This document shows, piece after piece, positions 103-49,687 of a DNA stretch of 49,687 bases. The stretch's first letter is position 1, and the number at the start of each line of letters is the position of its first letter. The DNA lies in the IMG/VR virus record IMGVR_UViG_3300049629_001842, positions 1 through 49,687 of that record. One strand, written 5' to 3'. The translations under genes were made by a program, and so were the position numbers. This DNA is from a virus. The notes under the pieces were generated by a model that was not told where the DNA came from, did not search any database, and saw only the letters and a list, made by a program, of their open reading frames with translations.

Positions 103-133
103 TGTAACTTAACAAATAGATTACATCTTAATG
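103..133 (+). repeat. Left terminal inverted repeat
   Basis: TGTAACTTAACAAATAGATT followed by 11 more bases matches the reverse complement of 49539-49569 over 31 bp with one mismatch (A versus G at the 21st base). The TG start and CA end are the usual termini cut by DDE transposases of the Mu/Tn7 class. The five bases outside (CTCAT) do not match those outside the right end (GAGGC). Confidence 0.88.
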
Positions 134-6399: not shown

Positions 6400-6833
6400 T
6401 CAGGAATTCCTAAATAATTCCTTCGCAAAATTTCCCACGATGCCAAAATTTTGCCATCGGCATTAAAAGCATCTGGATTAATTGCCCGGTGGCGAATAAT
6501 CGTCGTTACCTCCTGTAGTCGGCTTTTTGCCCCTAAATCAGCTTGGATTTGTAATACCTCTTCAATTTCTGATACATACTTACTTGAAATTAGGGAATTA
6601 GCCAGAGGATTATCTAAAATCCCCGCCGCTTCTTCTCGGCTAATATTTTCCTCAGTACATATCTTCTGTAGTATCTTCAGAAGCCTAAGCTGAACCTGAG
6701 AGGTTTCGAGCAACTCGGAATCGATCGCCGCTTGCTCCTGAACCATAATGTATCCAAGTTTGAGTAAACGGAAGGGTCCGTCAATCGTTTCAAAAATAGT
6801 AAAATCAATCGGCTGTTTGCTGAATGGAAGCAT
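6213..6833 (-). CDS. Tail assembly chaperone (G-type, zero frame)
   Basis: 206 residues, mostly helical (for example VQLRLLKILQKICTEENISR and NPLANSLISSKYVSEIEEVL). The last ~32 residues after the slippery heptamer are low-complexity serine-rich, as expected where the sequence is also constrained by an overlapping frame. It lies between the tail tube and tail-tip genes. Such chaperones coat the tape measure during tail assembly and are absent from the virion. The start overlaps the preceding 87-residue gene by 29 bases; an internal ATG at residue 30 (MVQEQAAIDSELL) is an alternative. Confidence 0.7.
   Translation of the reverse strand: MLPFSKQPIDFTIFETIDGPFRLLKLGYIMVQEQAAIDSELLETSQVQLRLLKILQKICTEENISREEAAGILDNPLANSLISSKYVSEIEEVLQIQADLGAKSRLQEVTTIIRHRAINPDAFNADGKILASWEILRRNYLGIPDWDTTDTLLLDQELYRQISEFADQERMAKKQRSRPFPSQNISKDLSSTSASENLTGVLSTGE
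6312..6318 (-). other. Programmed -1 frameshift slippery site A AAA AAG
   Basis: On the coding (minus) strand the phasing is GCA AAA AAG, i.e. a canonical X XXY YYZ heptamer, identical to the E. coli dnaX slippery site. A purine-rich AGGAAAG about 8-15 nt upstream could act as the stimulating Shine-Dalgarno-like element. Sliding back one base enters the 5848-6399 frame exactly. Confidence 0.75.
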
Positions 6834-18682: not shown

Positions 18683-18741
18683 ATCTTTAATCCTCTTTAG
18701 TTTTCTAGGTGCAATGCTTGGGTTGGTTCTTTTGTAATGCT

Positions 18742-18860
18742 TCTCAACCCCTGTGATTAACATCATAACAGGTAGCTAGGTATCTGTCAAGGGGTTTGGG
18801 AAAATATTTTTGATATTTTTTTTCCGACCCCTGAAAGTCAGGTGTATCAAGGCTTTTGGG
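18742..18860 (-). promoter_or_regulatory. Promoter cassette A (upstream of the 208-residue cargo gene)
   Basis: One of three near-identical ~117-bp units. On the minus strand it has TTGACA (18785-18790), a 17-bp spacer and TATGAT (18762-18767), close to a consensus sigma-70 promoter. Upstream of the -35 lie an A/T tract and the palindrome CCTGACTTTCAGG, a possible operator. A shared leader CCTAGAAAACTAAAGAGGA, with ribosome site, links it to the start codon. Confidence 0.7.
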
Positions 18861-18872
18861 CGTTTAGGATTA

Positions 18873-19105
18873 AAAAAATCCTAAAGTAAAGAGATTGAAT
18901 TGAATTTAATCAGTCGCAGGGAATAATAGACTACTGGATTATCAAAGAGTCCAACTCTTGCTAGTTCTATTCGGAATTTCTTCACACTTAACTCGCCCGT
19001 TTGGACTTGCACCTAAGACAAATATTTCCCTTTGTCCCAGCACTTTTCACCGTCGAATGTTTTCCTTGGCAATCTCTTTACTTTAGGGTTTTCTCAACCC
19101 CTGTG
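18873..19105 (-). ncRNA. Candidate structured small RNA, about 230 nt
   Basis: No gene fits between cassettes A and B. The minus strand reads: promoter B, then CCTAAAGTAAAGAGATTG, about 170 nt with several local hairpins (GACAAA/TTTGTC; AAGAGT/ACTCTT), then the exact complement CAATCTCTTTACTTTAGG, followed by ATTTTTTT. The arms are perfect over 18 bp (19087-19070 and 18897-18880), and the 3' arm plus T-run forms a ready terminator. Own promoter, closing stem and terminator together describe an independent noncoding transcript. It does not match a class I recognise; 6S-like overall shape is noted but the sequence does not resemble 6S RNA. Confidence 0.6.
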
Positions 19106-19210
19106 ATTAACATCATAACAAGTAGCTAGGTATCTGTCAAGGGGTTTGGGAAAAAATTTTTGATATTTTTTTCCGACCCCTGAAAGTCAGGTGTATCAAG
19201 GCTTTTGGCG
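19092..19210 (-). promoter_or_regulatory. Promoter cassette B (upstream of the candidate RNA)
   Basis: Same unit as cassettes A and C with a few base changes and a one-base shorter T tract: -35 TTGACA at 19135-19140, -10 TATGAT at 19112-19117. There is no start codon with a ribosome site downstream, so its product is probably the structured RNA. Confidence 0.65.
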
Positions 19211-19358: not shown

Positions 19359-19745
19359 CTATTCTGGCTGTGGATCGAAAATTTCTACAAGAATTTCGAT
19401 GTCGCTGTTGCCAGTTCCATGCAAGTGGATATTTATATCATCTAAATCGGTAAGAGGATAATCCCAGCCATCAGGAATGATGGCTTCGCACGTGATTAAT
19501 TCCTTAAGTTCCGCCCAATTCACATCAAAAAATACATTTTCTTTGCCTGTTAGGCATCGCCCGCCGCCTCGCCGAACTAAGCTCCGAACTATCTCAGAAA
19601 TTTTAATTGCCCCCTCTTCGGTTTCAGCAAATTCAGCAATTGGAATCTCCCGGTGAAAATTATTGTAGTAATTTTCCCAAATTGTGCCTTGATCTCGCCA
19701 GTAAGCTCTTTGAATATCTGGGCGTTCATTGTCAATGCTATACAT
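19359..19745 (-). CDS. Cargo protein of 128 residues, unknown
   Basis: Starts MYSIDNERPDIQRAYWRDQG. The N-terminal 54 residues are identical to those of the chimeric FGE protein because both come from the 919-bp duplication. The C-terminal half is acidic (LTDLDDINIHLHGTGNSDIE). No family recognised. It was probably the original last gene of the cargo operon, downstream of one FGE gene. Confidence 0.55.
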   Translation of the reverse strand: MYSIDNERPDIQRAYWRDQGTIWENYYNNFHREIPIAEFAETEEGAIKISEIVRSLVRRGGGRCLTGKENVFFDVNWAELKELITCEAIIPDGWDYPLTDLDDINIHLHGTGNSDIEILVEIFDPQPE

Positions 19746-19789
19746 AATAATTCTTTTTTCCGACTCCTAATTAGTTTTAACTGATAACT

Positions 19790-19842
19790 GATTACTGATA
19801 ACTGATTACTGATAACTGATTACTGATTACTGATTACTGATT
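19790..19842. repeat. Heptamer tandem repeat (ACTGATW)n, STRR type
   Basis: Runs of ACTGATA and ACTGATT follow each other without a break. A second, identical array lies about 20701-20760 through the 919-bp duplication. Short tandemly repeated heptamers between genes are well known in cyanobacteria. Confidence 0.75.
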
Positions 19843-20664
19843 GTCGCAGACCACCCGAAAACCGACACTGTAGTAGCGGTCGTTGCGGCGGTCGCCGAAG
19901 TTGCGAATCGCGGAACGGCAGAGATTAGGATTGTTGCCCCAAGAACCGCCCCGCAGACATTTTCGAGACTGGGAACAATTATCATTATCAATCGGCCCAT
20001 CATCCAGCGCTCCAGCATAGCTGTTACGCCAATTGTCCTCGCACCACTCCCAAACATTGCCACTCATGTCATAGAGTCCCCAAGCATTGGGCTTTTTCTG
20101 GCCCACAGGATGAGTTGTCCCCTGAGAATTTCCGTAATACCAAGCGTAATCTCCTAACTGATTAGCATCATCACCGAAATAAAAGCGAGTAGTAGTCCCC
20201 GCACGACAAGCATATTCCCATTCCGCTTCTGTGGGTAGGCGATAGGTTTTCCCTGTTATTTGACTCAATTTCTGACAAAAAGCTTGAGCATCATCCCAAC
20301 TAACCTTTTCTACCGGATTTTGGGGATTATTTGAAAAATGAGAGCGATTGGTTCCCATTACCGCTTGATATTGTGCTTGAGTAATGGGATATTTGCCAAT
20401 GGCAAAACTGTTTATTTTAACTTGGTGTTGAGGCGCGTCATAGTCTGACGCATCGCCTATGAGAAACTCACCTGCTGGTAAGCTCACCATCTCTAATGCG
20501 ATCCGAACTATCTCAGAAATTTTAATTGCCCCCTCTTCGGTTTCAGCAAATTCAGCAATTGGAATCTCCCGGTGAAAATTATTGTAGTAATTTTCCCAAA
20601 TTGTGCCTTGATCTCGCCAGTAAGCTCTTTGAATATCTGGGCGTTCATTGTCAATGCTATACAT
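19834..20664 (-). CDS. Chimeric FGE-fold protein created by duplication
   Basis: 276 residues: the first 54 come from the 128-residue gene (start MYSIDNERPD), fused in frame to the FGE/SUMF1 domain from IALEMVSLPAGEFLIG on. FGE hallmarks are present: RLPTEAEWEYACRAG, GLYDMSGNVWEWCEDNW, CLRGGSW and GFRVV. The normal N-terminus (MNQFTEKLPNQ) is missing. The final ~35 residues show the NNC-codon pattern of a retroelement-diversified region (see findings) and equal those of the complete copy upstream. Whether the chimera folds is unknown. Confidence 0.8.
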   Translation of the reverse strand: MYSIDNERPDIQRAYWRDQGTIWENYYNNFHREIPIAEFAETEEGAIKISEIVRIALEMVSLPAGEFLIGDASDYDAPQHQVKINSFAIGKYPITQAQYQAVMGTNRSHFSNNPQNPVEKVSWDDAQAFCQKLSQITGKTYRLPTEAEWEYACRAGTTTRFYFGDDANQLGDYAWYYGNSQGTTHPVGQKKPNAWGLYDMSGNVWEWCEDNWRNSYAGALDDGPIDNDNCSQSRKCLRGGSWGNNPNLCRSAIRNFGDRRNDRYYSVGFRVVCDNQ

Positions 20665-20752
20665 AATAATTCTTTTTTCCGACTCCTAATTAGTTTTAAC
20701 TGATAACTGATTACTGATAACTGATTACTGATAACTGATTACTGATTACTGA

Positions 20753-21454
20753 TTACTGATTGTCGCAGACCACCCGAAAACCGACACTGTAGTAGCGGTC
20801 GTTGCGGCGGTCGCCGAAGTTGCGAATCGCGGAACGGCAGAGATTAGGATTGTTGCCCCAAGAACCGCCCCGCAGACATTTTCGAGACTGGGAACAATTA
20901 TCATTATCAATCGGCCCATCATCCAGCGCTCCAGCATAGCTGTTACGCCAATTGTCCTCGCACCACTCCCAAACATTGCCACTCATGTCATAGAGTCCCC
21001 AAGCATTGGGCTTTTTCTGGCCCACAGGATGAGTTGTCCCCTGAGAATTTCCGTAATACCAAGCGTAATCTCCTAACTGATTAGCATCATCACCGAAATA
21101 AAAGCGAGTAGTAGTCCCCGCACGACAAGCATATTCCCATTCCGCTTCTGTGGGTAGGCGATAGGTTTTCCCTGTTATTTGACTCAATTTCTGACAAAAA
21201 GCTTGAGCATCATCCCAACTAACCTTTTCTACCGGATTTTGGGGATTATTTGAAAAATGAGAGCGATTGGTTCCCATTACCGCTTGATATTGTGCTTGAG
21301 TAATGGGATATTTGCCAATGGCAAAACTGTTTATTTTAACTTGGTGTTGAGGCGCGTCATAGTCTGACGCATCGCCTATGAGAAACTCACCTGCTGGTAA
21401 GCTCACCATCTCTAATGCGATTTGATTGGGTAGTTTTTCGGTAAATTGGTTCAT
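20753..21454 (-). CDS. FGE/SUMF1-fold protein (C-type lectin-like), cargo
   Basis: 233 residues from ATG 21454 (MNQFTEKLPNQIALEMVSLP), preceded by GGGA; a TTG 42 bases upstream is less likely. A complete formylglycine-generating-enzyme fold: GKYPITQAQYQAVMG, PVEKVSWDDAQAFCQKL, RLPTEAEWEYACRAG, MSGNVWEWCEDNW, GGSWGNNPNLCRSA, GFRVV. In cyanobacteria this fold is widely used as a ligand-binding target of diversity-generating retroelements as well as an oxidase. It follows a 130-residue gene in an operon from promoter cassette C. Confidence 0.8.
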   Translation of the reverse strand: MNQFTEKLPNQIALEMVSLPAGEFLIGDASDYDAPQHQVKINSFAIGKYPITQAQYQAVMGTNRSHFSNNPQNPVEKVSWDDAQAFCQKLSQITGKTYRLPTEAEWEYACRAGTTTRFYFGDDANQLGDYAWYYGNSQGTTHPVGQKKPNAWGLYDMSGNVWEWCEDNWRNSYAGALDDGPIDNDNCSQSRKCLRGGSWGNNPNLCRSAIRNFGDRRNDRYYSVGFRVVCDNQ

Positions 21455-21496
21455 TTTGTTAGTCCCAAATAGTTGATGATAACTGATAATTGACAA

Positions 21497-21929: not shown

Positions 21930-22047
21930 TTCTCAACCCCTGTGATTAACATCATGACAGGTAGCTAGGTATCTGTCAAGGGGTTTGGGAAAATATTTTT
22001 GATATTTTTTTTCCGACCCCTGAAAGTCAGGTGTATCAAGGCTTTCG
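21930..22047 (-). promoter_or_regulatory. Promoter cassette C (upstream of the FGE operon)
   Basis: Third copy of the ~117-bp unit: TTGACA, 17-bp spacer, then TGTCATGATG instead of TGTTATGATG, so the -10 hexamer CATGAT departs one base from the other copies and may be weaker. Same leader with AAAGAGGA before the 130-residue gene. Confidence 0.65.
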
Positions 22048-24974: not shown

Positions 24975-27360
24975 AGCCCTCTCCTACGGCGGACCCCGGT
25001 CTCGAATTCAATGTCAGCTTCCCAATGGCAAAATTTTGTCAGCGATTGCCGCCACCCCCATCAACTCCCCCAATGTTGTCATCGGCTTCGACCAAAACGG
25101 CCAAGCTTGGGTCTGGGGGGAACCAAGCAAAATTCAGCTACAATCCACCTCGATCCGCAAAAATCGCCCCTCACTCAAAGAAGAGATAATCTATCCCTTT
25201 AAAGTTGTTGCCACTTGGAATACTCCCCTATTTATCGCCCAAGCCGGCGACCGCCCCAGCACACAACTAAGCACCCTTAAAGTTTTAGCCTTTGGTAATC
25301 GTGGCAAAAATAAACAAGATTTTATCCTATTACAGGAAATAAGCACCGACCAATATCGGCTAACCACCAAAGAAGGCGATCGACAATTACAATTTGAATC
25401 TCCTGATTTTTTAAACTTTTTCAAAACCAAAGGTAAATATTATGGTGACGATTTTTTTGGAATTTTATTAACAGAAGAGCAAGACTGGAAAAGCTCCGAT
25501 ATAGTTACCACAACCAACGGAAATACTACAATTAGAACCACCCCCAATGGCGGCTATTACGATATCTCCACTAGAGCCAGTAATGGCTCAACTCAATACG
25601 ATCCTCCTATCTCATCACTTCTATCAGAGCCTCTCCAACCCGACCCCTCCGCACGGCGTGGCTACAAACCTACACTATTGATACAGTTTCCACTTCCCGA
25701 TCCTTTCTATACTTCAGGTCTTTTTGGTAACGGAATCGTTGGACCCGAAGAGAGAGCCAATTGGAATCAAGCGATACAAGCCTGCGTAAACACCGCCTCC
25801 ACCGAAATACTTCCACCCGATCCAATACTCAGCGGAGGGCAAACCAATCAGCTTTATACTGATTTATATGAAAGAAATACCAATAGAAGAAAGTTTCTTT
25901 TATCTGGCTCTCTTGATTCTATTTCCAAAAATACTGCCATCGAAAATATCGAAGACAGAGAAGATTATAGCCAGTCTGGAGAATACGAAGTAACACCTAT
26001 TGTTACATTTACAGAGGGAGCTGGGGGTGGTGATTACTGTGCATACCCCATAGCTGGGGCAGGTAGTGTCAACGGAGCTTATTATGAATTTCGCTACACC
26101 TTCAATGTTGTAGTCGATAGCTACATCGAAAATGTCCTGCAGATAGAAGCTAATACGGACGCATCGGCTTATGCTAATTCTATTCCAATCAAAATTAACA
26201 CATCTAACTCGATTGACTATACTATTAATTCTACATACAACAGTACAAAAACCGTTGACGACACTCTCACTCAAACAGGATCAGACGTTAGTAACTCAAC
26301 GCAATCAATTGAAACCATCGAAACTAGACAACGCACAACCATTATTAACAACGAAGTGACTGGATTATACAAAGGTAACGATGAGCTTTGTATATACGCC
26401 AAAACAGATAATAGCACTCGCATAGCATCCGATTCACTCAATAACATTAACAACATAGTAAACGGCATAAGCTCTCAAATTACCACCTTTAGCGGTGGAT
26501 TAGATACCAACGAAAATATAGAGCCAAAAAACATTTATTTAGCAAACAAAGAAAATATTATATCTTTTGAAAAAAATTATTTTTATTTAAGAGTATCAAA
26601 CATAAAAAATATAATCAATTTATCACAGCTTGTCTGTCCTTTTAGCTTCGATATTGAATCTTTTAGCCTAGCAGAATACAAAGGACTTTTTTATCTCTAC
26701 TTTGATTATCCAGTAAAATACACTTATGATCGCATTGTCACAGGAAACACTATTACCTCTACCAATATTAATCTAATATCTTCCCACAGTGACGAATACC
26801 ATCTTGTCCCAAATTTTAATTATCCTCTTGAATTAATTATTTTTGATGAAGAAAATATTTATAAATTATTAGGTACAATAAGCTTTACATACAGCATTAC
26901 GCCTAGAAATTATACTGCAAGCAATGTTTTTAACCCAGCTTCCCCTTTTGGTTCATTTAGTTACTCTACCGCATCTTTAGCAAGCGCATCAATCACCATA
27001 ACAGATTATCAATTAATTAAATACCATGCCTTAAAAGGCCTAAACACCAACACCTTTGGTCACATCTACAGCCCAAATAATTGCTTAGGATTATTTCAAA
27101 AACTCTTAGGAGACAATTTCGACCAACAATCAGGTGTAAGCAGAGCAAATCTTTACAGAAGAAAAAATAATCAAATCATCCTCGCATTTTCCGATAACTC
27201 TAATCTCACAAAAAGAGGAGAAAGATACGCCGACCTATATCGGCTAGAAAATAATAAATTCATTCGAGAAGGCGAAAAAAAAGGGAGCTACTATCCAGTA
27301 ATAAATAGTAGCACCCAAAATTCTCCCAACAGCGCCTTTATCTCCTACCAGGATAACTAA
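24958..27360 (+). CDS. Large tail-tip protein, likely receptor-binding
   Basis: 800 residues from ATG 24958, chosen over an upstream ATG because it gives a short overlap with the hub gene. The N-terminal ~150 residues (YGGPRSRIQCQLPNGKILSA, GFDQNGQAWVWG) are C-rich in DNA like the hub gene. From about 25430 onward the DNA becomes AT-rich and the protein rich in Asn, Ile, Ser and Tyr. That switch, with only two TCGGCT sites in the last 1.95 kb, suggests a conserved tail-binding head joined to an exchangeable tip. No known domain recognised in the tip. Confidence 0.55.
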   Translation: MLIPAKALSYGGPRSRIQCQLPNGKILSAIAATPINSPNVVIGFDQNGQAWVWGEPSKIQLQSTSIRKNRPSLKEEIIYPFKVVATWNTPLFIAQAGDRPSTQLSTLKVLAFGNRGKNKQDFILLQEISTDQYRLTTKEGDRQLQFESPDFLNFFKTKGKYYGDDFFGILLTEEQDWKSSDIVTTTNGNTTIRTTPNGGYYDISTRASNGSTQYDPPISSLLSEPLQPDPSARRGYKPTLLIQFPLPDPFYTSGLFGNGIVGPEERANWNQAIQACVNTASTEILPPDPILSGGQTNQLYTDLYERNTNRRKFLLSGSLDSISKNTAIENIEDREDYSQSGEYEVTPIVTFTEGAGGGDYCAYPIAGAGSVNGAYYEFRYTFNVVVDSYIENVLQIEANTDASAYANSIPIKINTSNSIDYTINSTYNSTKTVDDTLTQTGSDVSNSTQSIETIETRQRTTIINNEVTGLYKGNDELCIYAKTDNSTRIASDSLNNINNIVNGISSQITTFSGGLDTNENIEPKNIYLANKENIISFEKNYFYLRVSNIKNIINLSQLVCPFSFDIESFSLAEYKGLFYLYFDYPVKYTYDRIVTGNTITSTNINLISSHSDEYHLVPNFNYPLELIIFDEENIYKLLGTISFTYSITPRNYTASNVFNPASPFGSFSYSTASLASASITITDYQLIKYHALKGLNTNTFGHIYSPNNCLGLFQKLLGDNFDQQSGVSRANLYRRKNNQIILAFSDNSNLTKRGERYADLYRLENNKFIREGEKKGSYYPVINSSTQNSPNSAFISYQDN

Positions 27361-27365
27361 ATTGC

Positions 27366-29264
27366 CTAGGGACTTAAAAAGCCATATAATTCAATCTCCC
27401 CGAAGACTTGCTGCCACCAAGTAGAGCTAGTGCCGCTAGTTCGCCGAAATCGAATATACCTGCTGAATGTGCCGCTTGCCGGTATCTCCGGGCTGATTAA
27501 ATCTTGTCCAGCAAAAGCGCCACTTGTAAAAGAGTGTATCTCCGTCCAGTTCAAGCCGTCGTCGCTCCTTTCGACGGCGGTGGGTGAGAGAACCGGTAGC
27601 CCGTCGGTTCTAGCCCATGGACGAATCACAATTCGAGTTAGAATTACTTTTCTGCTTTGGAAATCTAATTGAAAAATTTGAGATGTGGGCGATATGTCGC
27701 TGGCGTGCCACGCAGTATCTAAATTTCTATCGGTTGCTTGTTCTACGCCAAATCCGCCTGTATGAACCCCCGAAGATGTGGCCACCACCTGAGTAGGAAC
27801 AGGATTAACGAAAATTTGAGAGTTAATGGCAGTAGTTCCCAGATAATAGATAATCCCGTTTGTATCTCCTGGTGACTGATAATTAGTAAGGTTTATCGTA
27901 TTAATTAATATATCCGAAACATAACTAGGAAGAATATTCCATCGATTCTTGAATAGTAATGGAATTATAAATCCTTGTGGATTAATCTTAAACAAACTTA
28001 CCGACACTTGTGAATTTAGTGTAATAGTGCCAGTGACAGTTATCAGGCAAGGATTCTCTAAAACTAAAAAATAGATTATAGTATTTTCTTGTGGAGTGCT
28101 TGGTAGAGCTACCGAAAAATTATTAGCCACAACTAAATCATTAGCCACAACAGGAAAATTGTTTGCTGTAGGGCTAACTATATTTAATCCACCGCTTCCC
28201 CCACCAGTGGGCAGATTCTTAATAGCAGAAGCATCTAGGCGATCATTACCAGTCAAGGTGGCTAAAGAATCTCTAATCTGAGCAGGTGACAAAGACCCCC
28301 CCTCTCCACCAGAAACCGTAGCCCACGCCCCATCACCCCTTAAATAAGTAATACTGCTGGCCGTACCAGTAGCACTGATTTTAGCGGGCGTAACAGAACC
28401 ATTAGCCAACTTAGCCGTGGTAACAGCACTATCGGCTAACTTAGCAGTACCAATAACCCCACTATCAATACTCCACACCGTCCCACTACTAGAGACAGTG
28501 ATCTCCCCCTTATCCCCGTCCGATACCCCACCAGAAACCGTAACCCACGCCCCATCACCCCTTAAATAGGTCGTGTTGCTGGCCGTACCAGTAGCACTGA
28601 TTTTAGCGGGCGTAACAGAACCATTAGCCAACTTAGCCGTGGTAACAGCACTATCGGCTAACTTAGCAGTACCAATAACCCCACTATCAATACTCCACAC
28701 CGTCCCACTACTAGAGACAGTGATCTCCCCCTTGTCCCCATCGGTGACACCTCCACTAGGAACCGTAGCCCAAGAGCCATCACCCCTTAAATAGGTCGTA
28801 TTGCTGGCCGTACCAGTAGCACTGATTTTAGGGACTGTAACGGATTGATTGGCTAACTTAGCAGTACCAATAACCCCACTATCAATACTCCACACCGTCC
28901 CACTACTAGAGACAGTGATCTCCCCCTTGTCCCCATCGGTGACACCTCCACTAGGAACCGTAGCCCAAGAGCCATCACCCCTTAAATAGGTCGTATTGCT
29001 GGCCGTACCAGTAGCACTGATTTTAGGGACTGTAACGGATTGATTGGCTAACTTAGCAGTACCAATAACCCCACTATCAATACTCCAAATCGTGCCACCC
29101 CCAGAGACAACAATCTCCCCTTTATCCCCATCAGATACCCCAGAAGTAACTAGGCTATCAGCGTAGCTTTTCGGAACCGCATCGCTAGGTTCCACAGGAG
29201 TCGGCACTTTAACCGTCGCCCCCAGTGTCAGCACAATATTTGTCGGAAATTCTTTATTACTCAT
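27366..29264 (-). CDS. Long tail fibre: tandem repeats plus discoidin-like tip
   Basis: 632 residues. After a short head, four related modules of about 65-73 residues follow, each with [33 protein letters not shown] and YLRGDG, then [20 protein letters not shown] and a linker. The last ~140 residues are an F5/8 type C (discoidin) domain: [59 protein letters not shown], ending GEIELYGF. Such domains bind glycans, here probably host-cell polysaccharide. It is convergent with the plus-strand tail-tip gene, six bases apart. Confidence 0.85.
28276..29100 (-). repeat. Tandem DNA repeats inside the tail fibre gene
   Basis: Four near-identical units at periods of about 195-220 bp. Blocks such as the segment around CCACTATCAATACTCCACAC recur almost unchanged. 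They allow fibre length variation by recombination and could be collapsed in short-read assemblies. Confidence 0.85.
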
Positions 29265-29726: not shown

Positions 29727-30758
29727 TTAAGGTCTCCAAACCGGTTTAGGCGCAGATTCCAATCCCGATGCCCGCTCAAAAGGCGAAACACCATAATCTG
29801 GTTGCAAACCTTGTTTTTCCAATTCGGCTAATCCTTTAGCTCGATGATCCCTGATCCAATCTTCCTTAATCAATCCCTTCTCAAAAAATTTCTTTTTTAC
29901 CGGCACAATAAAACACCGATCCTGAAAATGAATCGGTGGGCGCGTCGCTCCCAATTCGTACATATTCCCATTTCTGGCCGAGCAATACCGACAAACTCGG
30001 CTATCAATAGTAGCCATCCACTGAATCCACTCCACCCCATTCTCCCGAAACAGATTCTCCGCCGCCGCATTAGAAGCACTTAATGAAGCAGTGCGGGCAA
30101 TGATATCCGCTCGTTTTTTCGTTACCTCAAGCTGATCGCGCAAAACCTTTGACAATCGGGCAACCCCCCATCCCTGAATCAAGGCTTGCTCCACCGCAGC
30201 AGAAGCCTTTGAAGCAAATTCATCTCCATATCGAGATAAATACCTAGTCTGTTCTTCCGCCGCATACCGCAGCGCATCAAGAGGAATCGTCGCCGTTGCC
30301 CTGATAAAATCCTCCCCAGAAATCTCCATTAATCGCTGTCCCATCTCAATCCCCGTCGCATCGGCTAAACGCAAAAGCTCCTCAAAATCTTGCCGAAAAT
30401 CTCGCCCAGAAGCCGGATTGAGTAGTTCCTTTAGCTGATCCAATAACAAAAGCTTGCGCTGGTAAGCCACTAATCCCCCCTGCGCCTGATACTCAGGATA
30501 CTTCCGGCGCAACTCCTCCTCCAATTCCAGAAAAGCCCTCGCCAAAGCCCGATTGATGCGATCCGCTATTCGCGTCTCCGTCGCAGCCAAAGTCCGATTT
30601 AAATTTTCAATTAATCGTAAATGCTCAGGGCTTGTCATAGTTTTAGATGGTAAAAGAAAAATAAAAAGCGCAACGATTCTCGCCATCGCCGCGCTCTTGA
30701 CCAAAAGGAAATTACCAAGCAGTAGAATCGGCTTTGTGTTACCCATTCTACAAATCAT
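29727..30758 (-). CDS. MuF-like minor head protein
   Basis: 343 residues if started at 30758, where AAGGT lies just upstream and the portal stop is six bases away; a start at 30638 (MTSPEHLRLIENLNRTLAAT) would be more typical. The C-terminal MuF domain is clear: QGWGVARLSKVLRDQLEVTK, IIARTASLSASNAAAENLFR, then DSRVCRYCSARNGNMYE and RPPIHFQDRCF. MuF proteins sit in the head near the portal and can be injected. The gene follows the portal gene, as in Mu and SPP1. Confidence 0.85.
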   Translation of the reverse strand: MICRMGNTKPILLLGNFLLVKSAAMARIVALFIFLLPSKTMTSPEHLRLIENLNRTLAATETRIADRINRALARAFLELEEELRRKYPEYQAQGGLVAYQRKLLLLDQLKELLNPASGRDFRQDFEELLRLADATGIEMGQRLMEISGEDFIRATATIPLDALRYAAEEQTRYLSRYGDEFASKASAAVEQALIQGWGVARLSKVLRDQLEVTKKRADIIARTASLSASNAAAENLFRENGVEWIQWMATIDSRVCRYCSARNGNMYELGATRPPIHFQDRCFIVPVKKKFFEKGLIKEDWIRDHRAKGLAELEKQGLQPDYGVSPFERASGLESAPKPVWRP

Positions 30759-42113: not shown

Positions 42114-42854
42114 TTATACCCCCCGTACCAGTGGCAAAATTTTGGCACTATTTCCCGTCGGAAATTCTGGCAGAAAAGATTTATTACCCCACTTCTGCAA
42201 ATTCACCTCGCCCAGATCATTGGCAAAAGCCCACTTCTCAATCCGCCCTAAAGCCCACGCGACCCGGCGGCAATTGCAAGCAATTCGCGGATCTTCAAAA
42301 ATCGCATTCAAGATATCAGAATCAAATTCCACCTCGCACAATCGGCTAATCTCCTCAATATCAGCGAGAGTGGCACGAGGAACTTCCCCTAAATACCGGA
42401 AGCGATCAAAAAATAAAGGATACTGAAGAATCCGTTGATAGGAGCCAGTCATACCGATCAACACCACCGGCACATTCCCCTGATCGTGAAGAACGCGAAC
42501 CGCCTCCACCAAATCAATCCGACCCAGCAGTCGCTCACACTCGTCAATGAAAACCGGTCGGCAAGAAGTTTGCAGATAATCAATCGCACCCTCCAAAGCA
42601 CCCGCGAAACTACGGCTTTTCTCCCCGCTTGAAATCTTCAGTAAATGATTGATAAAGTGATAAGGAGACCAACCTTGAATCGCTTCCAGATAAATTCCGT
42701 TAAATTGCGAACAAATCAGCTTAATAGCCGTGGTTTTGCCGTATCCCGGCTCCCCCCAAAATAGCCCAAGCTTTTCCTTCGGCTCATCAACGAGCCACCC
42801 AATACCCCCCTCGATAAATTTAAAAGCCGTAGTTTTGACAACGAGATCTTTCAT
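42114..42854 (-). CDS. MuB-like AAA+ ATPase, target selection
   Basis: 246 residues. Walker A GEPGYGKTT (about 34-42), Walker B PVFIDECERLL (about 100-110), sensor PVVLIGMTGSYQRI (about 129-142), and RFRYLGEV. The family (MuB/TnsC) forms ATP-dependent filaments on target DNA, activates the transposase and provides target immunity. It is 48 bp after the transposase gene as in Mu. Confidence 0.88.
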   Translation of the reverse strand: MKDLVVKTTAFKFIEGGIGWLVDEPKEKLGLFWGEPGYGKTTAIKLICSQFNGIYLEAIQGWSPYHFINHLLKISSGEKSRSFAGALEGAIDYLQTSCRPVFIDECERLLGRIDLVEAVRVLHDQGNVPVVLIGMTGSYQRILQYPLFFDRFRYLGEVPRATLADIEEISRLCEVEFDSDILNAIFEDPRIACNCRRVAWALGRIEKWAFANDLGEVNLQKWGNKSFLPEFPTGNSAKILPLVRGV

Positions 42855-42901: not shown

Positions 42902-44953
42902 TTACCTAGCTACAGCCTGCGCCCTAGCCTTAAAATTCTTGGCAAGATTAGGCGATATACGCTCAAATCGCGCCAAGAACTGTCGTTCCTCCTCAGATAA
43001 ATCGCCACACCGCTCGTACAAAGCACGCGCACGGTCTATCTTCACCTGGAACTGCTGCTCCTCCGTCATGTCAGCCTGCTGACTCAAACGAGCCTGCAAT
43101 CGCTCCTGACGGAGGAGCATTTCTTCTTGATCGGCTGCATCCATTTGTGGAGCAGGAATTGCAGCCATCGGATCAAAAATCTTCTTAGGAGCCTCCCGGG
43201 GAATATTAAGATTCACATTCCCCTCCTTACTCACCTTCACCAATCCCACCGGGTCATTCTCGATCACCCGCTTCAAGGCCTTGGCCTGCTTCTGCTTTTC
43301 CTTCACGTCGGCTTGCGCCTGTTTATAGGTCGCCTTCCCAGCCGCCGCCACCTGCTTCTGTTGCTCCGCACTCATCGGATTCAGCCACCGAGCAACACAA
43401 ACAAACTTATCCAGAGAATCATTACTGTAAACATAAATATCATTGGGATTTTCGGGATGCCACCGGACGTGAACCTCCTGTCCGACCAACTTTCCTAGTT
43501 CACCCGCCACATAGTAGCGATTATTTACCTGTATCCCTGATTTCTGTACTTTCCGAGTTGCTACTGGCAAAATCAAGAAATCAAGCGCCCGCTCATCGGC
43601 TATCGATCGAGGATGCCAGCCCTTCCTGATCGATGAAGCCAAAACCTCAATCGGAGACATCCCGTCCAAACCCTCGCTGGCCGATAAATGGGCTTTTTCA
43701 CACCACTTATCAATCCAAGCCTGAAAAGCCTCCGGCGACATCCGCAAACGATAAGGATCCTTCTCATCCCGAATATCCTGCCGCTCGGCTACACTATGTC
43801 CACAGTAGCCCGGCAGCATCTCAAATTCACCATGCTGCAAAGTCCGAAACAGTCGCTCAATATGGGGTTTCTGCTGAGGGCTATAGGGATCACACCGCTC
43901 AACCCCAATCTGCAAAGCCCGCAAAAATAATTCCGTCCGGCCAGAGACATAATTTTTACCATTATCGGTCTTCACCGCAATCGGCTTACCCCAATCCAGC
44001 AAGCACCGCCGCAAAAGAAGAAGCACAGCCTCACTATTAGCCGTCTCGTAAATTTGGAACTTTCGCCGGCGTGTGTAAACATCGATCGCCCCCACCAAAG
44101 CAAATCTTTTTTCCTTGGCTTCCCCATCCTCCTCAAATTCCAGAATAAGATCCTGCTTAGTATCGTCTAGCTCCCAAATTTCATTAGGAACCGTCAAATG
44201 CGCCGAATAAGTGCCAAAAGCTGGCATCAGCTTATTCTTACTTTCTTTCTCCGAACGATACTGAATCAATTTTGGCTTCTGCTCTACCTCAAATTTATTT
44301 AGCCACCGCCGCAATTGATGCTCTGAAGGTATAAAAGGTAAATCCTCAAAAGATTTTTCTAAAGCCAGCTTCACTTGCCTCGGCGACCACCGCCCTCGCC
44401 CCGCCGCAATACAAACCTCGATCGCCTCCTGTAACCCAGGATAAGACTCGATCGCTCCAATGCGTCGGCTATTCCGTCCCAAAGCATCAAGCCCCTGCAA
44501 TTGATACTCCCTCCGCCGCTTGCAGAGCGTAGATCGAGAAATTTGCGGAACAATCGCCCAGCACTCAGAAGAAACAGTAGTCAATTCTCGCTGGTTATAT
44601 AGCTTGCAAAAATTTAGCTCCAATTCCTCTCTCAAAGCGTTACAACCATAGTCGGCTTCAAACCGACCAAAAGCATCTAGTATCTGCAAATTAGCCCAAG
44701 CCTTTCTCTGATCGATTCCATGACCTACCGTGATCGGCTGCTCCTCAATCGCCGGCTGTAACTTAGCAACCAAAGCCGCTTGAGAATCTCGTGGAAGCGA
44801 TTCCACACTATACTCCCAGCCACCCCCACGACCTTCTCTCGCGCGGCACTCCCAATCCTCTTTCTGAGCCTTTTTTCTAAGCCCCGCAACGGTACTAGGC
44901 AATCCAATCAGATCAAACTTAATCAATTCTTGCAAAGTGTACCAATTACTCAT
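42902..44953 (-). CDS. MuA-type DDE transposase
   Basis: 683 residues. N-terminal Mu DNA-binding winged helix (WYTLQELIKFDLIGLPSTVA...). A second HTH region (STLCKRRREYQLQGLDALGR) follows. Catalytic core: Asp near 263-264 in NEIWELDDTKQDL, Asp 330 in IAVKTDNGKNYVS, Glu 366 in QKPHIERLFRTLQ, giving a D-x66-D-x35-E spacing. The C-terminal part holds a Mu-type beta-barrel (YYVAGELGKLVGQEVHVRWH) and a charged helical tail that should bind the ATPase. Overlaps the preceding small gene by eight bases. Confidence 0.93.
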   Translation of the reverse strand: MSNWYTLQELIKFDLIGLPSTVAGLRKKAQKEDWECRAREGRGGGWEYSVESLPRDSQAALVAKLQPAIEEQPITVGHGIDQRKAWANLQILDAFGRFEADYGCNALREELELNFCKLYNQRELTTVSSECWAIVPQISRSTLCKRRREYQLQGLDALGRNSRRIGAIESYPGLQEAIEVCIAAGRGRWSPRQVKLALEKSFEDLPFIPSEHQLRRWLNKFEVEQKPKLIQYRSEKESKNKLMPAFGTYSAHLTVPNEIWELDDTKQDLILEFEEDGEAKEKRFALVGAIDVYTRRRKFQIYETANSEAVLLLLRRCLLDWGKPIAVKTDNGKNYVSGRTELFLRALQIGVERCDPYSPQQKPHIERLFRTLQHGEFEMLPGYCGHSVAERQDIRDEKDPYRLRMSPEAFQAWIDKWCEKAHLSASEGLDGMSPIEVLASSIRKGWHPRSIADERALDFLILPVATRKVQKSGIQVNNRYYVAGELGKLVGQEVHVRWHPENPNDIYVYSNDSLDKFVCVARWLNPMSAEQQKQVAAAGKATYKQAQADVKEKQKQAKALKRVIENDPVGLVKVSKEGNVNLNIPREAPKKIFDPMAAIPAPQMDAADQEEMLLRQERLQARLSQQADMTEEQQFQVKIDRARALYERCGDLSEEERQFLARFERISPNLAKNFKARAQAVAR

Positions 44954-45404: not shown

Positions 45405-45974
45405 ATGGCGACTACATCACTTATCCCAGTACGACAAGCGGAATTATGGACAAAAAAAGGATTAGGAAGACTGGGCTTCCTAATCCGACAAGCCAGACTA
45501 GACCTCGGCTGGTCAATGGACCGTCTAGCGTTGGCCGTGTACCACAAAACCGGGGAGCAAATCGCCAAGAAGACAATCGGCAATATAGAGAATAATGTCG
45601 GCTTTCCCCAGTACAACTCTCTAGCGGCAATCGCCGCCCTCCGAATCGTCAAGAGCGCCACGGGCAGACCCCTCGATCACCACGACTTTATCGACATTGC
45701 CTCGGAGAACTACGAGATTACCCCTATGAACCTTCGCGACATGATCGACTGCGCGATACTGATCAACAAACTTAGCGAGGGGGAAATTTGGAGAAAACTA
45801 GAAGCGATGAAAAACACGCTTCCAACCCCCTTTACCCTCGATCGCCTCGAAAAAATCAAAGAAAGACAGATCAGCCCCACTGATACAGATATTCGGATTA
45901 TTAGAGAATTAGTAGATCCCAATGGAGAAGCCTTTGACGAAGCAGAATGGCTTCAATCGGCTAACCTGCTTTGA
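45405..45974 (+). CDS. XRE-type lysogeny repressor (probable)
   Basis: 189 residues. HTH near residues 25-65: LGFLIRQARLDLGWSMDRLA, then AKKTIGNIENNVGFPQYNSL. A C-terminal helical domain with no protease or Mu-c homology follows. It diverges from the transposase operon across the control region, exactly the position of phage repressors. It retains three TCGGCT sites, so it belongs to the old backbone. Confidence 0.75.
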   Translation: MATTSLIPVRQAELWTKKGLGRLGFLIRQARLDLGWSMDRLALAVYHKTGEQIAKKTIGNIENNVGFPQYNSLAAIAALRIVKSATGRPLDHHDFIDIASENYEITPMNLRDMIDCAILINKLSEGEIWRKLEAMKNTLPTPFTLDRLEKIKERQISPTDTDIRIIRELVDPNGEAFDEAEWLQSANLL

Positions 45975-46073: not shown

Positions 46074-47211
46074 ATAATCCTCACGTCCGAGTAAAGGGTA
46101 AAAGGGGAAAAAGAAAAAAGGGTTAGAGAGTTCTCCCGAATACGCAGACTACCCGAAAACCGTAACTGTAGTAGCGGCGGTCGCGGCGGAAGTCGTTGAG
46201 ACGGAAAGCGGAACGGCAGCAAATTGGATTGCTGCCCCAGGAACCGCCCCGCAGGACAGAATATGGATTATTTCCGTCTTTTTCAGTAGATTCTAAGCTA
46301 TTTTCAGCATCAAGATTTTCCTCTTGATTATTATCAAGCCAAGCACTACCGTCACTAGGCGCATTTTCATAATTGTCATGCCAGTCATCCATACACCATT
46401 CCCAGACATTTCCGTGCAGATCGTATAATCCGAAAGCATTCGGGGGAAATTGATCAACGGGAGTCGTTTCTTCTCGATATTCTCCTTTGGGTTCATCTGC
46501 ATAAGTTTTAGTAGCATTATAGTTGGCTAACTTATCAGTGAGGGTTTCTCCAAAGTAAAAGGGTGGGTAAGATTCACCTTTTGCGAGGTCTAGGGGTTCT
46601 GTCATAGCACGACAAGCGTATTCCCATTGTGCCTCCGAAGGCAGTCTATAATCTCTCCCCGTTAGTTTTGCCAGTCGCTGGCAAAACTCTACAGCTTCAT
46701 ACCAATTGACTCTTTCAACGGGTCTAAGCCATCTATCTATTTCTCTGTCTTGATCTTGATAGGGTTTTTTAAAATAAGATGGATCTTCTTCTAAGTCTAT
46801 TTTTACTTTTAAATCGGTACGGGAGGCGATCGCTCTCCACTGCGCTTGAGTAATGGGATATTTCCCCATGAAGAAAGGAGGAACCTTTACATTATGTTGG
46901 GGACGTTCATTATTACGGCTATCTTTTTCATTTTTAGGAGAACCCATCGTAAAAGTACCATCAGGTATAGATACTATGTCGAGAGTAATTTCTTCGGCAA
47001 TATTCGTCTTTAACTGTTTAGTATTAACTATTAACTGTTCGCTGAAATATTGGGCGGTGTGGGTGGTAGTTTTAATGATTTCGCCGCGAAGGTTTACTGT
47101 GGGAGTTTCAAACATAATGTCCTTTCCTTTGTATTAGTATTTTAACAAAATTGATGAGCAGGACTCACTAAAGCTTTAATTTCTTGCTGGTGGGGAATAA
47201 TCCTCACGTCC
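46074..47211. mobile_element. Cargo insert flanked by 15-bp direct repeats
   Basis: ATAATCCTCACGTCC occurs at 46074-46088 and 47197-47211, with an FGE gene between. The left copy is followed (minus strand) by the codons GRED-YPPYLISKKGK..., which look like the original C-terminus of the gene at 47176, now cut off and replaced by SPPARN. The insert has no TCGGCT site. It therefore appears to be a recent gain of about 1.12 kb by recombination at the repeats. Confidence 0.65.
46123..47115 (-). CDS. FGE/SUMF1-fold cargo protein, second locus
   Basis: 330 residues. An N-terminal ~45-residue extension is followed by the full fold: IVSIPDGTFTMGSPKNEKDS, GKYPITQAQWRAI, PVERVNWYEAVEFCQRLAKL, RLPSEAQWEYACRA, GLYDLHGNVWEWCMDDWHDN, VLRGGSWGSNPICCRSAF, GFRVVCVFG. 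The end aligns codon by codon with the other FGE genes (19834, 20753): constant flanks and about ten NNC codons that differ at positions one and two. AAGGAAAGGACATTATG gives a clear start. Confidence 0.8.
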   Translation of the reverse strand: MFETPTVNLRGEIIKTTTHTAQYFSEQLIVNTKQLKTNIAEEITLDIVSIPDGTFTMGSPKNEKDSRNNERPQHNVKVPPFFMGKYPITQAQWRAIASRTDLKVKIDLEEDPSYFKKPYQDQDREIDRWLRPVERVNWYEAVEFCQRLAKLTGRDYRLPSEAQWEYACRAMTEPLDLAKGESYPPFYFGETLTDKLANYNATKTYADEPKGEYREETTPVDQFPPNAFGLYDLHGNVWEWCMDDWHDNYENAPSDGSAWLDNNQEENLDAENSLESTEKDGNNPYSVLRGGSWGSNPICCRSAFRLNDFRRDRRYYSYGFRVVCVFGRTL

Positions 47212-49538: not shown

Positions 49539-49569
49539 CATTAAGATGCAATCTATTTGTTAAGTTACA
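49539..49569 (-). repeat. Right terminal inverted repeat
   Basis: Reverse complement of 103-133 with one mismatch; ends CA at 49569. The next five bases are GAGGC. Confidence 0.88.
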
Positions 49570-49687
49570 GAGGCCCTTGAGCGCCTAGAAAAGTATCGCC
49601 AACAACAGGGGGCCAGTAATGTGCTTTTATTACCCTTTCAACCCCGGGAAAAATTACCAGAAATGTTGGCAGCCGCCGATGTGGGTA
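49570..49687 (+). CDS. Host glycosyltransferase-like fragment
   Basis: Open through the window end with no start visible; reads EALERLEKYRQQQGASNVLL then PFQPREKLPEMLAAADVG. The block (N-V-x-L-L-x-F-Q-x-R-E-x-L-P-x-M-L-A-A-A-D) is typical of the C-terminal donor-binding half of group 1 (GT4) glycosyltransferases. It begins exactly at the prophage end, so the insertion cut the gene. The left flank does not encode its N-terminal part. Confidence 0.6.

Follow-up and report, generated by a model that had tools for sequence, protein, structure and literature searches.

The window analysed here is the whole stretch of 49,687 bp of the IMG/VR virus contig IMGVR_UViG_3300049629_001842. It shows three genes with an FGE domain (genes A, B, and C), whose 3' ends were predicted to be variable regions (VRs) of a diversity-generating retroelement (DGR) diversified by an enzyme acting in trans from the host. 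Known phage DGRs carry their own reverse transcriptase (RT) and mostly vary tail proteins. The locus raises the question of whether a phage can contain DGR targets without DGR machinery and, if so, which retroelement diversifies them.

Genomic context of the FGE genes

The window is apparently a complete Mu-like phage of the bloom-forming cyanobacterium Microcystis, spanning positions 103-49569. It encodes a MuA-like transposase (42902-44953, minus strand; Pfam Mu-transpos_C, HTH_Tnp_Mu_1, and rve) and, directly after it, a MuB-like AAA ATPase (42114-42854, minus strand; Pfam AAA_22), as well as terminase, portal, major head, and tape-measure proteins and an endolysin. The assignment to the Mu-like phages is based on MuA/MuB, inverted termini, variable host DNA at the ends, and head and tail genes. 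The left terminal inverted repeat TGTAACTTAACAAATAGATTACATCTTAATG (103-133, plus strand) has an inverse copy at the right end (49539-49569, minus strand), so that the sequence TGTAACTTAACAAATAGATTRCATCTTAATG begins at 103 and its inverse copy ends at 49569. Contig L135, which is 99.99% identical to the window, matches it up to the right repeat and diverges right after the right terminus. Outside the termini, positions 1-102 show 95-100% identity to the chromosomes of 12 of 12 Microcystis genomes, and positions 49576-49687 (about 112 bases, starting at about 49570) show 94-97% identity to the same number. These two flanks map to unrelated Microcystis chromosomal loci, which indicates that the contig blends phage copies from different insertion sites. 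The original prediction described the element as a prophage; it is a Mu-like phage whose flanks do not show residence at one site. No close match to the phage MuA region was found in 12 Microcystis genomes.

Gene C (46123-47115, minus strand) encodes a stand-alone linker and FGE domain of 330 amino acid residues (Pfam FGE-sulfatase, E 3.9e-55). It is adjacent to a phage repressor-like gene (45405-45974, plus strand; phrog_3 transcriptional repressor, weak match, E 2.9e-4), at the end corresponding to the c end of Mu. The possibility that gene C lies in host DNA beside a prophage, with the RT just past the contig end, was tested and rejected: the inverted termini are located beyond gene C, the related contigs stop at this point or close to it, and host sequence appears only farther out, which places gene C inside the phage. 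All three FGE genes are located within the phage termini.

Gene B (20753-21496, minus strand) is an open reading frame encoding an FGE domain protein listed with 247 residues (Pfam FGE-sulfatase, E 4.8e-55), and its true start is probably the ATG at about 21454. Gene A (19834-20664, minus strand) is a chimeric copy of B: the 669-nt 3' ends of both genes are identical, and the first 54 residues of A derive from the neighbouring gene 19359-19745. The original prediction named the end at 20759-20880 as a copy of that at 19840-19960; A and B are exact copies, contained in a 919-bp tandem duplication (19583-21420; repeat 19583-19882/20502-20801, spacing 919). The exactness of the duplication indicates that it is very recent, and it generated the chimera with 54 residues of the neighbour. 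Large unassigned proteins and a tail-fibre gene are encoded near A and B. Furthermore, the A/B cassette is flanked by a 116-nt direct repeat (18741-18856, 19091-19206, and 21930-22045; 79-100% identical), possibly a mobile cassette border or a regulatory repeat, whose 33-nt core shows no exact match in the loci searched.

According to Pfam, the three genes share the FGE-sulfatase fold. The structure model of gene C, of moderate quality (pTM 0.76, mean pLDDT 68), matches PvdO, FGE, and Treponema variable protein 1, a DGR variable protein.

Variable regions and template adenines

The last ~111 bp of genes A, B, and C are homologous to template repeats (TRs) of Microcystis. The VR of gene C (46144-46254, minus strand) aligns without gaps to the host TRs, the VR of gene A (19846-19956, minus strand) matches the TR of M. 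aeruginosa FD4, and the VR of gene B (20765-20875, minus strand) is identical to that of A and also matches the TR. The distance from the VR end to the stop is six codons in C and three in A and B; in all cases the VR is at the 3' end of a CLec/FGE-fold gene, as expected for a DGR target gene. With respect to the TR of the FD4 plasmid, the VR of A is changed at 14 of 29 adenines and 2 of 82 other bases (Fisher p = 3.2e-8), and the VR of C at 16 of 29 adenines and 4 of 82 other bases (Fisher p = 2.3e-8). The mismatches (14+2 in A, 16+4 in C) were rated as directed to template adenines. The exact source TR allele of gene C was not found, and the TRs of S464, S102, and FD4 each leave four non-adenine mismatches. 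The GC content is 61% in the VRs versus 41-44% in the remainder of each gene.

The predicted signature is thereby confirmed at the three gene ends, with adenine specificity against the host TRs (p ~3e-8). The original prediction had relied on the comparison of A and C, stating that codons differ at the first two bases and the third stays C or T. Between LRGGSWG and GFRVVC there are 17 first- or second-position differences and six third-position differences, against 130 and 106, respectively, outside the VR; the statement is mostly but not wholly right, and the comparison, although correct in kind, is weak alone (p = 0.12, non-significant). Most of the changes at the third position (CCT/CCA, GCG/GCT, CGC/CGT, TCT/TCC) correspond to fixed differences among host TR alleles. 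That p value would agree with ordinary FGE-family variability of the LRGGSW-GFR loop with no retroelement involved; however, this is already contradicted by the TR comparison (adenine specificity p ~1e-8), by the absence of any non-adenine mismatch in several phage VRs, by near-identical genes with 16-27% different VRs, and by the location of the host TRs next to RT and Avd, which makes it practically untenable. Gene C is a DGR-type target gene, and the VRs of the phage FGE genes almost certainly have a DGR origin.

The 3' end of the VR, CGGTTTTCGGGTAGTCTGC (46144-46162 in gene C, minus strand), is invariant: it is the same in TR and VRs, and the differences between phage pairs stop here. This candidate IMH-like site, with the conserved 3' end CGGTTTTCGGGTRGTCTGC common to TR and VRs, would have the IMH role in priming. 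Directly downstream of gene C is a 3' flank common to it and the host target gene (46089-46122, minus strand), as the blastn alignment to plasmid p1FD4 of M. aeruginosa FD4 runs through 46089-47112. In the 60 nt downstream of the VRs the best folds are weak (-0.5 and -6.5 kcal/mol, RNA parameters) and are not GC-rich stems of 7-10 bp, and no BPP-1-like GC-rich hairpin was predicted there. Since the host targets share the flank of gene C, this DGR clade may not need a BPP-1-type hairpin.

DGR machinery in Microcystis and in its phages

The prediction that the host would show a DGR with a matching AAC-rich template was borne out. An RT search of Microcystis genomes found RTs of 352-356 residues adjoining Avd and a non-coding repeat rich in AAC codons, and Avd (NF033474, above cut-off) is found in the host genomes G001, G003, and G014. 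Plasmid p1FD4 contains a complete DGR cassette (RT, 26945-28003; Avd, 29952-30293; TR, 26796-26923) with two targets. Two Microcystis genomes encode RTs that are 98% identical to each other, and the Microcystis RT is 74 and 68% identical to the RTs on plasmids of Fischerella NIES-4106 (AP018301) and Anabaena sp. 90, respectively, which were reported as DGR-bearing (PMC7517822).

Additional elements were observed in these hosts. p1FD4 shows a second FGE target and an avd without RT (L260 8834-11319); the last 300 bp before the VR of this target are 100% identical to those of the G003 target, and the VRs are 75% identical. A third template type, ending in GGTTTTCGGGTTGCGTGTGTC, is located beside the chromosomal RT of genome G010 (L218 about 6735-6830), and some viral VRs (L087, L110) end in the same way. 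Moreover, M. wesenbergii has an open frame of 1313 residues, related to phage genes A and B, that encodes five FGE domains in tandem (L220 2893-6834).

None of the parts of a self-contained DGR cassette (RT, Avd, and TR in the element) was found in the phage. As stated in the original prediction, the window lacks RT (no RVT_1 match) and template, with only the three VRs matching host TRs. RT is absent from four complete Ma-LMM01-type genomes (Ma-LMM01, MaMV) and 28 viral contigs. Avd (NF033474) is likewise missing in these four genomes, as well as in the window and in eight viral contigs. The RT query of viral contigs retrieved only two distant relatives (47% identity), and the exact TR core pattern showed no match in 2.9 million viral contigs, which is expected if the template is host-borne.

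Gene C and the conflict system of the host

Over 990 bp, gene C is 94% identical at the nucleotide level to the C-terminal part of the p1FD4 gene for WP_233271454. This protein has 1238 residues, with a SAV_2336-related N-terminus (RefSeq name), GUN4, and a C-terminal FGE domain, and its gene is a DGR target whose neighbours encode a MoxR ATPase, VMAP-C, and TIR proteins. The same arrangement with MoxR and VMAP-C is found in G001, and the target of S464 is a CHAT-NB-ARC/NACHT-FGE protein. The homology starts exactly at codon 2 of gene C, the point at which the phage carries a ribosome-binding-like stretch and an ATG. Judged by its sequence, gene C represents the sensor domain from the C-terminus of a host VMAP/MoxR/TIR conflict protein, with a start codon of its own, an identification that is new here, and the capture was most likely from host to phage. 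DGR-diversified antigen sensing has been proposed for such VMAP/MoxR conflict systems (PMC10907252), and the host protein resembling gene C probably detects viruses. The complete MoxR/VMAP/sensor set is on the host plasmid p1FD4 and in G001. A VMAP/MoxR ternary conflict system was not seen in the phage: gene C is the FGE domain alone, the phage protein lacking the SAV_2336 and GUN4 parts, and a PADLOC scan of a few window proteins gave no match.

Targets in other Microcystis phages

The original prediction considered two such target loci in a prophage unusual, which needs qualification: targets of this kind are also found on many Microcystis viral contigs and in cultured Ma-LMM01-type phages. 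Six contigs (L132, L145, L146, L150, L151, and L155) share synteny with Ma-LMM01 in the gp062 region and belong to myoviruses. The VRs of L132, L145, and L146 carry no mismatch to the FD4 TR at non-adenine bases, and 12-13 of the 29 adenines are changed. An FGE domain and a variable region of the DGR type are also found in gp062 of Ma-LMM01 (L254 2956-3786), which is annotated as 'kinase' and belongs to the early, host-takeover-class gene cluster gp054-gp063 (PMC5780444). The gp062 VRs of the MaMV isolates (L255-L259) are identical, yet the MaMV-DC gene differs from the rest at 18 other sites. Diversification is therefore not constantly active, and in MaMV it looks switched off or the VR looks to be under selection.

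Nine pairs of near-identical FGE genes were compared: seven phage-phage or phage-p1FD4, and two from host-host loci. The differences rise in a block from the 5' border of the TR and end before the invariant CGGTTTTCGGGTRGTCTGC. In eight of the nine pairs the rise is inside the TR-homologous block and the gene just upstream is nearly identical, L094/L095 being a weak exception. Between L137 and L139, five bases differ in the gene of ~830 bp and 27 of 105 in the VR, and their 200-bp 5' flanks are identical; across the 570 bp preceding the last 30 bp upstream of the block no difference is found. The divergence of the window from L136 is 4.6% over the gene and 22% over the VR. The 11 VR differences between L145 and L147 are all at TR adenines, and this pair also shows VR 3' parts shared between some phages.

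These pairs bear on whether the DGR writes phage DNA at all. VRs diversified in the host could be gained ready-made by the phages, through capture and short homologous recombination. Such a route would agree with gene C being a recent copy of a host target gene, with the high number of FGE genes in hosts and phages, and with the shared VR 3' parts of L145/L147; nevertheless, recombination tracts would be expected to have varied borders, in contrast to the common border at the TR block and the clean sequence upstream of it in L137/L139. We consider this route unlikely, and retrohoming in trans onto the phage DNA, suggested by the fixed border, quite probable.

Proposed mechanism and role of the phage FGE proteins

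As a whole, the phage FGE genes are likely best explained as remote targets of host DGRs. The phages would have taken over the FGE sensor domain at the C-terminus of host proteins diversified by DGRs, and supplied it with its own start site. In infection or lysogeny, the host RT and Avd would then copy the host TR, on plasmid or chromosome, into cDNA with errors at adenines, and this cDNA would replace the last ~110 bp of the phage gene. The phage would thereby try out altered binding surfaces on the domain that serves a SAV_2336-GUN4-FGE/MoxR/VMAP-C/TIR conflict system of the host as its sensor. At the level of sequence, the capture of the domain, the adenine-directed variation, and the machinery absent from the phages and present in the hosts can be read directly, and from them we infer that host RT and TR may target the DNA of an infecting or lysogenic phage. 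A plasmid-supplied BPP-1 DGR can retarget a phage-borne cassette (PMC3240598). The missing source TR of gene C, the constant MaMV VRs, and the lack of a BPP-1-like hairpin were counted against action in trans, and the 116-nt repeats around A and B suggest cargo moving for other reasons. With the two corrections on prophage residence and rarity, the interpretation of the original prediction is supported: its observation is confirmed, and its enzyme acting in trans from the host would be that of the Microcystis DGRs.

Of the roles considered for the phage FGE protein, that of a diversifiable decoy or dominant-negative form that might blunt host sensing is the most likely, a tentative role for which the chances appear somewhat short of even. 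The early, host-takeover class of gp062 fits counter-defence better than a virion part. The same DGR mechanism could instead vary a virion protein for host recognition, like Mtd in BPP-1, given that phage DGR targets are usually tail proteins and that a tail-fibre gene and large unassigned proteins are near A and B. Gene C, however, is outside the tail genes, Ma-LMM01 gp062 is early and not late (PMC5780444), and no tail-attachment domain was found, so a virion role is very unlikely. Equally under the same mechanism, the protein could be lysogeny cargo, an extra sensor for the host MoxR/VMAP against competing phages. The host partner genes exist, and the repressor-like gene is the neighbour of gene C at the equivalent of the Mu c end; but the homologous gene is early in lytic Ma-LMM01-type phages (PMC5780444), and the phage protein has no SAV_2336 and GUN4 parts. 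There is only a small chance, in our estimation, that this is its role. Returning to the decoy, the wider scenario that unrelated Microcystis phages, transposable and lytic, stole a host defence sensor domain as decoy, and that the host DGR diversifies this decoy in trans, is more doubtful than the decoy role by itself.

Discussion

The system resembles the cyanobacterial DGRs with remote targets (Vallota-Eastman 2020, PMC7517822) in the kind of RT, in Avd, in the TR near the RT, and in FGE/CLec targets, which there are remote within a genome. Unlike here, the targets in that study are cellular genes and no cyanobacterial DGR was assignable to a prophage, while our targets are on phages without RT, Avd, or TR. 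It also resembles the VMAP/MoxR and STAND DGR sensors (Dore 2024, PMC10907252), as p1FD4 shows a DGR target fused to signalling domains together with MoxR ATPase, VMAP-C, and TIR. Trans diversification was inferred there from VRs matching a distant TR at all non-adenine sites, but within one bacterial genome; here the isolated sensor domain has moved to viruses. As in BPP-1 and hankyphage (PMC3240598, PMC12135933), the latter also transposable, a phage target gene has a 3' VR; those phages, by contrast, encode RT and Avd and contain a TR themselves, and the protein that they diversify, in cis, is a tail protein. A further likeness is with gp062 of Ma-LMM01 and its MaMV orthologues (Fukuivirus), FGE genes that have a VR of this template type in phages lacking RT and Avd, although they belong to a different phage family and are annotated as kinase or hypothetical.

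No paper linking gp062 to a DGR was found, nor any description of a host DGR that diversifies phage targets, in the literature searched, which included few subscription journals and little bioRxiv and so does not prove priority. Trans-targeted DGRs are known within bacterial genomes; viral targets without RT, Avd, and TR, and with host-conflict-sensor ancestry, were not found in that literature.

Cultured and uncultured phages thus appear to borrow a plasmid or chromosomal DGR of the host to vary a conflict-system domain, and the model cyanophage Ma-LMM01 gains a likely origin for one of its early genes. Viral targets of this kind would escape surveys that search for DGRs in the vicinity of an RT only. 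Two questions become testable: what cyanobacterial sensors diversified by DGRs recognise, and whether a DGR can act on a virus that enters the cell. If the decoy scenario is true, a host mutation machinery built for sensing would have been turned into viral counter-defence.
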